62,347 nt of DNA, from the NCBI RefSeq assembly GCF_030695525.1, contig NZ_JAUYSS010000015.1, positions 1 through 62,347 on the forward strand, read 5' to 3'. The stretch comes from Daejeonella sp. Its GTDB lineage: Bacteria > Bacteroidota > Bacteroidia > Sphingobacteriales > Sphingobacteriaceae. Shown here one piece after another: positions 11,482-62,058 of this stretch. Both the position numbers and the translations under genes were made by a program. A model generated the notes under the pieces. The model was not told the origin of the DNA. It was given only the letters and a program-made list of their open reading frames with translations, and made no database searches. How positions within the stretch are numbered: the stretch's first letter is position 1; each line of letters starts with the position of its first letter.

Positions 11482-11553
11482 TCTTGGTTCCTGGCTCTTG
11501 GCTCTTGATTCTTGATTCTTGATTCTGTTGTCTGTTGTCAGTTGTCTGTGATA
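11482..11553. repeat. Heptanucleotide array (CTTGATT/CTGTTGT type)
   Basis: About ten 7-base units: CTTGGTT, CCTGGCT, CTTGGCT, three CTTGATT, two CTGTTGT, CAGTTGT, CTGTGAT. A shorter run of CTGTTGT units lies at 11372-11388, and TTCCTTG-like units at about 11590-11616. They fill most of the 255-base gap between the esterase and the GH109-like gene. Confidence 0.75.
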
Positions 11554-13910: not shown

Positions 13911-14045
13911 GGTTGTCAGTTATCTGTTGTCAGTGATATACTACTAAATGTCAAATGAACTGTTAATAGTCTTTATTCTTTGTTCCTTATTCTTTGTTCC
14001 TTGTTCCTTATTCTTTGTTCCTTGTTCTTTATTCCTTGTTCTTTT
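13911..14045. repeat. Heptanucleotide arrays between two sugar-locus genes
   Basis: Two arrays fill this gap. At 13911-13937 the units are of the GGTTGTC/AGTTATC/TGTTGTC type. At 13974-14045 there are about ten clean units alternating ATTCTTT, GTTCCTT, ATTCTTT, GTTCCTT, GTTCCTT, ATTCTTT, GTTCCTT, GTTCTTT, ATTCCTT, GTTCTTT. The non-repeat core between them (about 13933-13975, TGATATACTACTAAATGTCA and following) closely resembles 11550-11590, so the two gaps share a composite structure. Confidence 0.82.
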
Positions 14046-16572: not shown

Positions 16573-16604
16573 TATCTCATGTCTCATATCTCATATCTCA
16601 TATT
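16573..16604. repeat. Heptanucleotide array (TATCTCA type) overlapping a stop codon
   Basis: Four to five units, TATCTCA, TGTCTCA, TATCTCA, TATCTCA and then TATTTTG, lie in the 75-base gap between two genes. The array reaches into the end of the sugar isomerase gene, so its TGA stop codon is part of the last repeat unit. Confidence 0.7.
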
Positions 16605-35875: not shown

Positions 35876-36271
35876 TTACTCATTGTTCGACCTTACAGAC
35901 ATGATATATCCCGGCTTCCGGGAACTAACAAATTTTGCATAGGCGAGTTTCTGATTAGTATCAAGAACAGAGCTTATCTTTTTATCTGTTTCAAGCTCTT
36001 TTGCTTGAAACATTGGTGTCAGTTTAGAATTAATGACCTCTGGATTTGGTCCCCGTTTCACAATGATTTTTTTAAGACTATCTCTGGAATTATAATGATT
36101 CATATAAATCTGCCTTACTTTTTCAGTTTGCTGATTCGTTAAATTCAGAATCGATTTTAAGGCATTGACCTTTCCTTTTGCATGATGCTCCGGAGATTGA
36201 CCCTTTGGATACCGGGCCATTAAGCCAAAGCTGCTTAAAACAATAAAAAAGATTAAGACTGAGGTTTTCAT
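35876..36271 (-). CDS. Small exported Spy/CpxP-like protein
   Basis: A 131-residue protein with a signal peptide (MKTSVLIFFIVLSSFGLMA). The mature part is helical and charged, with an LTNQQTEKVRQIY motif at about residues 43-55 (LTxxQ) and a second, weaker copy (DTNQKLAYAKF) near the end. This is the layout of LTxxQ periplasmic proteins of the Spy/CpxP/heavy-metal-resistance group, which act as chaperones or stress sensors. It lies 57 bases downstream of the SGNH gene's start region on the same strand. Function not proven. Confidence 0.65.
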   Translation of the reverse strand: MKTSVLIFFIVLSSFGLMARYPKGQSPEHHAKGKVNALKSILNLTNQQTEKVRQIYMNHYNSRDSLKKIIVKRGPNPEVINSKLTPMFQAKELETDKKISSVLDTNQKLAYAKFVSSRKPGYIMSVRSNNE

Positions 36272-36408
36272 GATACTATTTTTAAAGATAATAATTTATG
36301 AGTCAGAAAAAATAAACCATGCTGCTGAGTCAAAAGAAGAAGTACAGTTATGACAAATTAGCTGCAATAATGGGGTAAACTACTATCATAGACTAAGAAG
36401 TAAAAAAG

Positions 36409-38019
36409 CTATTTACCGATACAAAACTTACTAAATATCGTCTCCAGCAAATCATCAGTAGTTACCTGCCCGGTGATCTCACCAAGGTAATATAGCGCCT
36501 GCTTGATATCGCTTGCAAGAAAATCTGAGGTGATTGGCTGATCGATATTTTGCAAAACCCTGTTCAGGGATTCTTCAGTTTTTTTAAGGGCCTCAAGATG
36601 GCGGATGTTGGAAATCAGAACGTCGTCTGTATTGATGGAATGAAGATTTACTTTGCGGAGGATTTCTTGCTTTAGTAAGTCAATTCCTTCTTTATTACGA
36701 GCGGAGATGAAAATGAGGTCTGGGGACTGAGGTCGGAGGTATGAGGTATGAGGTATGAGGTCTGAGGTCTGGGGTATGAGGTATGAGGTCTGAGGTCTGA
36801 GGTCTGAGGTCTGATTATCTGAGTTCTGACTTCCTGCATCAGACTTCGGACTTCCTATTTCAGACTTCTGACTTCCGCCTTCAGACTTCTGACTTCTGAC
36901 ATCAGAATTCCGACTTCCAACCTCAGACTTCCGACCTCCGACATCAGACTTCCTGCCAATACCCTCCAGTTGTTCCAGAAAATCATCGTTAGCCAGATCT
37001 TTCTTATTAACCACTGTCAGAAATGGGATACTAAGCTGCTCCAAATAATTAATCTGCGACTTTATTTCCTCCACCTCCTGCTCAGGATCAACAAGATAAA
37101 TAATAAGTTTCGCCTGTTTGATCTTCTCATGTGTACGCTCCACTCCTTTTGCCTCAATGATATCTTCGGTATCCCGGATTCCGGCTGTATCAATGAAACG
37201 GAAATTGAAACCGCCAATGATCATGTGATCTTCGACTGTATCACGTGTAGTACCGGCTATCTCCGAAACAATCGCACGTTCCTCATTCAACAATGCATTC
37301 AAAAGGGTTGATTTACCCACATTGGGCTTGCCGGCAATAACCACCGGAACTCCGTTCTTCATCACATTCCCCTGTTCAAAGGATTGAATCAGACGGTGCA
37401 AGATGCGTTGAATCTGATAAATCAGTCCCTTGAGATCATCCCGGTTCGCAAATTCTACATCTTCCTCCCCGAAATCAAGCTCAAGCTCAATCATGGATGC
37501 AAAATGAATCAGCTGATCACGGAGGTGCTGCAATTCGGAAGAAAAACCACCCCGCATCTGTTGCATGGCCACCTGATGCGATGCCTGAGAATTGGAGGCA
37601 ATCAGATCGGCTACGGCTTCGGCCTGTGAAAGATCAAGCTGGCCATTTAAAAATGCCCTAAGGGTAAATTCACCCGGATTGGCCGGCCTTGCACCCTTTC
37701 GGATTAATAACTTGATGATACTTTCAATGATAAAGGCAGAACCATGTGTGGAAATCTCTACTACGTTTTCGCGGGTATATGATCTGGGGCCGATAAAAAT
37801 TGAAACCAGCACTTCATCCAATACCTGTTTCCCATCTTTTATCGTCCCAAAATGAATAGTATGACTATGCTGAATACTCAGATCTTTTCCTCCAAAGACT
37901 TCATTCACCAGACTGATTGCATCCGGCCCGGAAAGCCGGATTACCCCTATCGCCCCTATTCCAGAAGGGGTTGCGAGGGCAATTATTGTATCGGATTTGT
38001 ATTGTGGATGTTCAGACAT
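36409..38019 (-). CDS. mnmE: tRNA modification GTPase MnmE with repeat-derived insertion
   Basis: A 536-residue enzyme. With MnmG it installs the 5-carboxymethylaminomethyl group at U34 of certain tRNAs. Start is at MSEHPQYKSD (38019); the frame opens slightly upstream. N-terminal TrmE domain: TIIALATPSGIGAIGVIRLSG, folate-binding region near RAFLNGQLDLSQAEAV. G domain: G1 GKPNVGKST (230-238), G2 AGTTRDTVED, G3 DTAG (277-280), G4 NKKD (338-341) and G5 SAR (439-441). The family C-terminal CIGK is present. Usual length is about 455. The extra 80 or so residues are a run of seven-residue repeats (about 356-434) between G4 and G5, encoded by a heptanucleotide array. All catalytic motifs survive, so the protein may well work. 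Confidence 0.93.
   Translation of the reverse strand: MSEHPQYKSDTIIALATPSGIGAIGVIRLSGPDAISLVNEVFGGKDLSIQHSHTIHFGTIKDGKQVLDEVLVSIFIGPRSYTRENVVEISTHGSAFIIESIIKLLIRKGARPANPGEFTLRAFLNGQLDLSQAEAVADLIASNSQASHQVAMQQMRGGFSSELQHLRDQLIHFASMIELELDFGEEDVEFANRDDLKGLIYQIQRILHRLIQSFEQGNVMKNGVPVVIAGKPNVGKSTLLNALLNEERAIVSEIAGTTRDTVEDHMIIGGFNFRFIDTAGIRDTEDIIEAKGVERTHEKIKQAKLIIYLVDPEQEVEEIKSQINYLEQLSIPFLTVVNKKDLANDDFLEQLEGIGRKSDVGGRKSEVGSRNSDVRSQKSEGGSQKSEIGSPKSDAGSQNSDNQTSDLRPQTSYLIPQTSDLIPHTSYLRPQSPDLIFISARNKEGIDLLKQEILRKVNLHSINTDDVLISNIRHLEALKKTEESLNRVLQNIDQPITSDFLASDIKQALYYLGEITGQVTTDDLLETIFSKFCIGK
36716..36955. repeat. Heptanucleotide array inside mnmE coding sequence
   Basis: About 34 seven-base units. 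On the plus strand the first half is of GAGGTAT/GAGGTCT type (36716-36820), then the array inverts into CAGACTT/CTGACTT/CCGACTT units (about 36835-36955). Three units equal 21 bases, so the reading frame is preserved and the protein gains seven-residue repeats: RKSEVGS-type in one half, TSDLIPQ-type in the other. The two halves are near complementary, so the RNA could fold into a long hairpin. Confidence 0.9.
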
Positions 38020-39078
38020 GAGGAATTGGTATTTGTGCAAATATCGTGATTCTTGGTTAAATTTTCCTCGAGCAAGTTTTGAATGAATTTATTCTCATCA
38101 ATCACAGGTATCCGCCTAAAAAAAATATATTGTCTCAAAATAAAATTAGTCCGCCTTTGCGGCGGAAGGGCACTTAATTTCCCTGCAGCTGGAAAAGTAA
38201 GCAAAAGAGCCGCGGCTTCCCGGTATTTGTTGTAAATCCACACTTTTTCCCATCGGTGCAATCCAAGCCGTGTTTTTGGCAGTCTAAAAGGTGAATGAAT
38301 CTGCAACACTTCTCCGGATTGCTTAACTGCAGTGATTTATGACTGTCAATGCTGGGAAAAAGTGCGCCTTTCCTGCCAAATCCCGAAATGCCGGTCCCTG
38401 CAATCGGCAACACCTGTAATTAATGAACGGTTGTAAACCCGGAGCACAGTCCCAAAACCGTTCATATCAGAAAAGCCTTTGCGAAGGACGATTCTCCCGG
38501 TTTAAAACCGGGACCTGTGCCAGCAAAATCAAAAAAATGAAGTAGATTCTTTCGAATAGCACTTCCGAGCATTAGATTTTGGGATCATACCCGGAATGCT
38601 TTCATAATCAGATATCCCCCAAAAGCAGTCCCGCACTTGCGGGATGGCCAAGGCACCTAGGGATTGAAGTCCCGATTGCCATCGGGATTGGCCTTCAAAC
38701 CTGAGCCGCCCTTCAGCGGTGAAAGCATAAACACCTTTATAAACATCAAAAACTGGTGAATAACGAATTCGCCCCCCGGCAATGGAGGGACATATGTTTA
38801 ATAGGGACTTCTTACTTTGAAATTAGTTACAATTTCAATTTGAAAAGCCAAAATAGAGCTATTCTCAATATTCCTAATTTAATCGGACAGTAATGACCAT
38901 CATTTGACACTGTAAGATCAAATATTCTGAATCATACGTTAATATTAATGCGACTAGCATTCTAAAACAAAAATTATCCCCCATTCTTTCCATATTCATA
39001 AATTCAGTAATTTAACCTTTCCATACGCATAAAATAATCGTCCCGCAGATGCAGGATTAAAAAACAATTTATACATAG
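38020..39078. other. Kilobase intergenic region rich in short palindromes
   Basis: No gene is supported. Palindromes include CCGCCTTTGCGGCGG near 38150, CCCGGTTTAAAACCGGG near 38498, TCCCGCACTTGCGGGA at 38629-38644 and CCCGATTGCCATCGGG at 38671-38686. A long minus-strand open frame through 37983-38309 has repeat-like rather than protein-like character. The final 250 bases before 39079 are AT-rich and probably hold the peptidase promoter. Confidence 0.5.
38671..38686. repeat. REP-like palindrome CCCGATTGCCATCGGG
   Basis: A 16-base palindrome with one central mismatch pair (CCCGATtgccATCGGG). The same core, with small changes, occurs twice as an inverted pair at 41336-41413. Confidence 0.65.
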
Positions 39079-61779: not shown

Positions 61780-61790
61780 GATTTTCAATT

Positions 61791-61922
61791 GATAATTGAC
61801 AGTTGACAGTTGACCGTTGAAAAAAAATAGTTATTAAATGTCTTGATTCTTGGCTCTTGACTCTTGGTTCAATTATCGGTTGTCAGTTATCCGTTATCTG
61901 TTGTCTGTTATCAGTTATCTGG
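61791..61922. repeat. Heptanucleotide arrays after the FKBP gene
   Basis: First array (61791-61825): TTGATAA, TTGACAG, TTGACAG, TTGACCG, TTGAAAA. Second array (61843-61922): about eleven units, TTGATTC, TTGGCTC, TTGACTC, TTGGTTC, AATTATC, GGTTGTC, AGTTATC, CGTTATC, TGTTGTC, TGTTATC, AGTTATC. Both begin 10-60 bases after the FKBP stop. Confidence 0.85.
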
Positions 61923-62008: not shown

Positions 62009-62058
62009 TCTCAATACTCAATACCCACTACTCACTACTCAATACTCAATACTCATTG
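62009..62058. repeat. Heptanucleotide array (ACTCAAT type)
   Basis: Seven or so units: ACTCAAT, ACCCACT, ACTCACT, ACTCAAT, ACTCAAT, ACTCATT, with the phase kept throughout. Confidence 0.78.

Follow-up and report, generated by a model that had tools for sequence, protein, structure and literature searches.

The stretch of DNA analysed here, which we call the window, is 62,347 nucleotides long and forms one contig (C71) of a Daejeonella genome available as a 4.2-Mb draft assembly in 73 contigs. We label this source genome G000; other G-numbers denote further genomes of the genus, and L-numbers denote individual loci. On the minus strand of the window, a coding sequence of 536 codons beginning at an ATG (36412..38019, with its stop codon at 36409-36411) encodes the tRNA-modification GTPase MnmE, as identified by family models and alignment. 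The protein passes the equivalog test for MnmE, scoring 398.3 bits against TIGR00450 (cut-off 252.6) and 391.1 against NF003661 (cut-off 380), and also matches the Pfam MnmE domains. Translation and alignment place GKPNVGKS, DTAG, NKKD, SAR and the C-terminal CIGK all in this protein, so that, as originally predicted, no G motif has been lost; the roles of the G1-G5 motifs and of CIGK are those that we presume for the family. The G4 motif NKKD (residues 338-341; 36997..37008, minus strand) and the G5 motif SAR (residues 439-441; 36697..36705, minus strand), both located by sequence and alignment, are separated by 101 residues, against a commonest value of 22 among 87 parsed loops. The insert thus adds about 79 residues, in agreement with the 80 or so first estimated. 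From the loop spacing and an AlphaFold2 model it occupies about residues 357-434 (36718..36951, minus strand), between helix alpha4 and strand beta6, and the domains that follow it are intact by Pfam and alignment.

At the DNA level, the insert consists of two opposed runs of heptanucleotides separated by a short centre, and the midway inversion described in the original prediction is therefore real. On the plus strand, Tandem Repeats Finder reports a TGAGGTC-type run of 14.4 copies at 36714..36814 (here called F) and a GACTTC-type run at 36824..36953 (R), the latter with 18.6 copies and a score of 99 at period 7. The unit is thus of TGAGGTC type and not TAACTGA/TCAGTTA. In the mRNA, the R run forms the 5' purine-rich arm, of GAAGTCTGA type with a 21-base superperiod, and the F run forms the 3' pyrimidine-rich arm, of GACCTCA type. 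Both runs lie within the minus-strand ORF and contain no stop; across the G4-G5 segment the coding frame has no stops and the third forward frame has 10. The frame arithmetic proposed earlier, by which three heptamers equal seven codons, is correct. In the first arm the mRNA-sense unit GAAGTCT would place an in-frame TGA every 21 bases, and the printed codon blocks have GGA or AGA at these positions instead. It is this replacement that makes the R run score higher as a 21-base period (36817-36953, score 148) than as a 7-base one. The array is thus real, shares the reading frame of the G domain on either side of it, and avoids stops. Among the ORFs of the window none lies between the two arms, where an S23 element would have its gene, and Rfam returned nothing at gathering scores in 36000-38400.

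When the G domain was modelled with its insert (AlphaFold2, 42 sequences, mean pLDDT 74.5, pTM 0.53), residues 360-431 had pLDDT below 50 and no secondary structure, and the flanking helix (345-356) and strand (435-437) were kept. As the pTM is modest, we use the model for the disorder and the local flanks.

The array is neither an artefact nor unique. We collected 20 genomes of the genus, in 13 of which the MnmE loop could be read; of the other seven, G008 yielded the N-terminal part of the protein and six had no match beyond other GTPases. An insert is present at this site in nine of the 13 (G000, G001, G002, G003, G004, G007, G009, G018 and G019), that is, in eight congeners besides the source genome, and absent from four (G005, G012, G013 and G015), which have 22 residues between G4 and G5. 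The refuting condition attached to the original prediction, orthologues that all lack the array, is thus contradicted. As the original prediction anticipated, insert length varies among relatives, the eight insert-bearing loops that were measured spanning 42 to 101 residues. The heptamer sequences, which we call dialects, also differ: the insert is of TGAGGTC type in G000, G009 and G019, of TCAGTTA type in G001, G002, G004 and G007, of TCAGGTA plus TTTCAAC in G003, and of TCAAGTA plus GACCTCC in G018. From one relative to another, the whole sequence of the insert is replaced. In a tree of three proteins, built after removal of poorly filled columns, the nine insert-bearing genomes all fall inside one clade of 14 rows (SH-aLRT 100), where the insert is kept in 9 of 9 readable genomes, and the four insert-free genomes fall outside it. 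Because the nine share one clade, a single gain followed by replacement of the dialect would be the simplest history of the insert.

Similar loops occur beyond the genus. Among 110 MnmE loci of Bacteroidota, 87 loops could be parsed and about 23 could not. A lag-7 score of at least 10 was found in 14 of the 87, two of them second copies from the G001 and G002 records, compared with 0 to 2 loops at every other lag tested. Four of these loops come from outside Daejeonella (L071, L083, L106 and L128), and an ATCGTAA-type run was seen by eye in an unparsed fifth (L091). The G4-G5 loop is thus a repeated site for heptamer arrays. MnmE of Dokdonia (L099) and Robertkochia (L100) carries before G4 a repeat insert of another kind (SLPEKPSLPSASLPDRQAG-like; PDGRQAQPDSQQAQ). 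In Lewinella cohaerens (L138) MnmE has several hundred additional bases, and its G4 motif is followed by an unusual segment rich in Ser, Gly and Glu.

Heptamer arrays are not confined to mnmE. In 408 kb of G000 (the window and 20 further stretches) we found 19 arrays of period 7, whereas every other period between 4 and 12 gave one or two; a first-order Markov control gave one at each period. Tandem 7-base units are thus dispersed over many loci of this genome, as in the class of dispersed heptanucleotide repeats known as LSSR or STRR. The MnmE array had the top score among 16 arrays of the sample and was the sole one internal to an ORF, and a dialect-specific search of G000 found about 20 further places, so that arrays within genes are a minority. 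Several of the intergenic arrays in the sampled stretches have a neighbouring stop codon within about 15 nt. The window itself holds six further arrays with differing units, mostly intergenic (2795-2853, 11485-11546, 13970-14041, 16573-16603, 61787-61919 and 62010-62055), the last of which is in the same dialect as an S23 element on contig C70 of G000. The insert-free genomes G013 and G015 contain no match to the TGAGGTC, TCAGTTA or TCAGGTA patterns; in G015, TTTCAAC matches once and 60 kb of sequence yielded a single period-7 array.

Two other enzyme genes hold in-frame arrays of the same type, with differing dialects. An ORF on contig C32 of G000 (L239), which from its motifs we take to be MqnD, and its counterparts L240-L253 carry a heptamer array between GFGVGP and IPGKYTTA. 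The loop measures 35 to 114 residues in 18 genomes of the genus, with sizes (41, 48-49, 56, 63, 77 and 84 among others) that rise in steps of roughly seven residues. In G008 and G016 arrays also lie within an IspG-like ORF, which has shorter ones in other genomes, including G000; those at L299, L300, L306 and L311 are in frame and opposed, reading QLSV.SYQLS and then TDNRQQ. We also considered whether dialects are homogenised genome-wide. This holds for six of the seven inserts in a main dialect (G000, G009, G019, G001, G002 and G004, some of them non-independent kin) but not G007, whose MnmE dialect differs from its commoner one. The idea is rejected because the MqnD and IspG loci break it: in G002 the MqnD dialect is the other one than that of MnmE, and IspG of G000 retains TCAGTTA.

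The arrays of the genus are not only numerous and specific to period 7 but also polar, the purine-rich arm coming first and the complement-type arm second. Adjoining opposed runs were ordered F then R in 13 of 13 cases for TGAGGTC and 14 of 14 for TCAGTTA. With four dialects taken together there were 60 F-to-R junctions, 23 of which join different dialects, and one R-to-F junction. When loci were merged by the similarity of their flanks, 39 of 41 loci with gaps below 120 nt in six dialects were F-R only, two held both orders and none was R-F only; with two dialects alone, 19 of 20 were F-R and one was exclusively R-F. The order R-F does occur where the gap is 300-700 nt (raw counts 31 F-R and 12 R-F). 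Many of these loci were picked for the array of a given dialect and none for arm order, and related loci among them are not independent. The F label was our choice in four of the six dialects, made by purine content or by which arm stands on the left at the S23 site; the order across dialects leans on this choice, and the order within a dialect does not. Since F-R is its own reverse complement, the polarity belongs to the loci and not to the strand that is read.

The same arms are found around four-helix-bundle genes of the S23/IVP family (PF05635). PF05635 matches occur in 18 of the 20 genomes, the exceptions being G013 and G015, noted above as lacking the three heptamer patterns, and they are far outnumbered by the arrays (in G001, three matches against 219 of TCAGTTA). 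A search of the genus returned 30 S23 loci, in 26 of which an ORF was found by motif. Of these 26 genes, several being orthologues, 16 lie no more than 110 nt from a period-7 array, six of them with arrays on both sides (one, L385, has R-type arms at both), and ten have none; among control ORFs from nine array-bearing genomes the figures are 45 of 606 and, for both sides, 0 of 606. At one intergenic site 14 genomes have a spacer of 402-600 nt, most of them showing heptamer arms at its ends, and from the position of the PF05635 match an S23 ORF lies there between inverted arms in 13, the exception being G010. The same spacer is 43 nt long in G015, 71 nt in G018, which has an apparently lone R arm, and 132 nt in G013, which has R-type repeats. 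Arms at this site resemble each other in dialect more within a genome than between genomes (24.2 vs 14.3, permutation p 5e-5, uncorrected for relatedness). No intermediate between the MnmE array and an S23 element was seen.

Plasmids show a similar association. A search with one S23 protein returned 30 plasmid records, mostly of cyanobacteria with four of Riemerella, and we analysed 18 loci (17 cyanobacterial and one Riemerella), some of which are near relatives (L427-L430). A period-7 array lies within 150 nt of 14 of the 18 S23 genes, on both sides of five, and four have none. These loci hold 19 arrays in the 5.4 kb near S23 genes against 10 in the 36.8 kb elsewhere, one array in 11 other intergenic gaps, and no array at periods 5, 6, 8, 9, 10 or 11. 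In 11 of 18 the pairing between upstream and downstream flanks exceeds that of each of 60 shuffles, and arrays are mostly purine-rich upstream and mostly pyrimidine-rich downstream, with exceptions at L418 and L422.

Several known systems resemble parts of this picture. Rickettsia palindromic elements are palindromes of conserved sequence that lie in frame at tolerant sites of conserved protein genes; the MnmE array is likewise a palindromic repeat within a conserved gene, but is built of heptamers that vary. REPINs are short inverted repeat pairs, dispersed and fixed in orientation, with a RAYT transposase as the linked gene; they share the dispersed, oriented pairs, but the gene is RAYT and not S23, and REPINs are not known to have heptamer arrays. 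Heptanucleotide repeats were described by MacGregor 2015 (PMC4679880), among them TAACTGA repeats in Beggiatoaceae, in Cyanobacteria and in five Bacteroidetes. Those too are dispersed tandem heptamers; the TCAGTTA of congeners is TAACTGA read on the opposite strand, and the reading LSVISYQ predicted there is seen in the TCAGTTA-type MnmE inserts. They are, however, mostly direct intergenic repeats near start codons, a single indirect one being noted in the main genome, whereas the Daejeonella arrays have opposed arms in fixed order, occur within core genes and flanking S23 genes, and in mnmE of the window are of TGAGGTC type. In cyanobacteria the P6b stem of the trnL intron, described by Kaasalainen 2015 (PMC4476775), also has opposed heptamer arms at a fixed site, with classes repeatedly replaced, but forms a structural RNA stem and not a translated protein loop as in MnmE. 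The intervening sequence (IVS) of Coxiella 23S rRNA resembles the intergenic elements of the genus in that inverted repeats enclose an ORF for an S23 four-helix bundle. It differs in its location in 23S rRNA, from which RNase III excises such sequences, in its 28-bp stem and, in the passages of PMC4990558 consulted, in the lack of any mention of heptamer arms; the array in mnmE has the F-R arm order of the S23 elements but a different location and no ORF. According to PMC4990558, S23p has no known function. We recognised no prior report linking heptamers to S23/IVP or to MnmE in literature whose coverage left out most subscription papers.

On these grounds we consider it probable that the mnmE insert is a polar F-R array without a gene, a relative of the arms of S23 elements, which sits in a permissive loop and is kept free of stops by selection. 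The kinship is suggested by the shared unit length, dialects and arm order. Under this proposal, an F-R array would have entered, or grown in, the alpha4-beta6 loop in the ancestor of the 14-genome clade and would have been inherited since with changing length and dialect; its product would be a disordered loop tolerated by the G domain, with selection keeping the frame open. Co-location points to descent from S23-type elements, and the loop itself may be neutral. S23 elements may instead insert into pre-existing arrays, and slippage may shape both arrays and S23 loci. Counting against the proposal are the S23 genes with no array (10 of 26 in the genus and 4 of 18 on plasmids), the excess of arrays over S23 genes, the lack of an S23 gene in the MnmE array and of any intermediate seen, the R-type arms on both sides of L385, the MnmE arms that do not co-vary significantly within genomes, and dialects that are not uniform across a genome.

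Slippage could also be the whole explanation: a chance heptamer in the loop would have expanded by a polymerase that favours period 7, and arrays, S23 genes and MnmE would share a mutational bias only. A slippage view of heptamers is relayed second-hand in PMC4679880. The dominance of period 7 in the 408-kb sample and the seven-residue growth of MqnD loops agree with it, as does a short seed-like TCAG in the ancestral loop, at the corresponding place in G015 and G010-type relatives (CTG/CTT TCA GAT at L009 and L010). We nevertheless hold it unlikely, at roughly one chance in four, as slippage alone does not account for opposed arms in fixed order (39 of 41 loci, two mixed), for arms of mixed dialect that keep that order (23 F-to-R junctions, one R-to-F) or for the association with S23 genes (16 of 26 vs 45 of 606, and 14 of 18 on plasmids). 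A reverse transcriptase, telomerase-like or DRT10-like, that extends the two 3' ends of a break with heptamers before they are joined would yield F-R only, as head-to-head joining of same-strand additions should give this order, and DRT10 does make tandem-repeat DNA, as reported in PMC12632851. Its repeat unit, however, is 9 nt, and RVT_1 was found in three of the 20 genomes and in none of the array-rich G001, G002, G008, G009, G016 and G019. A resident reverse transcriptase is thus not the source of the arrays in most of these genomes, and we give this origin very little credence.

The original prediction raised tuning of loop length and an mRNA hairpin, and either could be a selected function that regulates MnmE, the hairpin by way of mRNA stability. 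That all nine genomes of the clade with a readable loop retain the insert favours such a function, as does the long hairpin predicted for the window copy, in which 72 of 98 pairs span the midpoint. The folding z-scores of eight Daejeonella loops are, however, inconsistent (-2.2, -1.5, +0.2, -2.7, -2.8, -0.9, +1.2 and +0.8), three being at or below -2.2 relative to shuffles and five not, and the arms of the MnmE inserts match no better within genomes than between them (p 0.14), which leaves a functional hairpin unsupported. Tuning of loop length fares no better, judging from the predicted disorder of the insert and the replacement of its whole sequence between relatives, and MqnD and IspG hold the same kind of insert. 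A selected role in regulating MnmE is therefore very improbable. Least probable of all is an assembly artefact or a frameshifted pseudogene, to which a 73-contig draft and the difficulty of assembling repeats might point, since separate assemblies hold in-frame inserts at the same site and the domains after the insert are intact.

More broadly, and with confidence that falls somewhat short of even, we propose that the opposed heptamer arrays of Bacteroidota and cyanobacteria, the cyanobacterial heptamer repeats included, are the arms and gene-less relics of one widespread class of small element whose sole gene is S23/IVP. Such elements would settle in the intergenic gaps of operons and, in gene-less form, in permissive loops of core enzymes (such as MnmE, MqnD and IspG), where they would be translated while their dialects change. 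The heptamer repeats of cyanobacteria and a few other bacteria have so far had no accepted origin and S23/IVP genes no known function; since the two occur together in two phyla and their arms keep one order, both questions can now be tested. MnmE, MqnD and IspG further indicate that such DNA can last for the lifetime of a clade within core enzymes, in the form of loops that are translated but disordered, and their inserts are natural experiments on the tolerance of loops to insertion.

In the cyanobacterial plasmid loci L418, L419, L417 and L425, four-helix-bundle genes are framed by heptamers or inverted flanks, and the genes between which they lie include cas6/cas4, ribonucleotide reductase subunit genes and Cmr genes.
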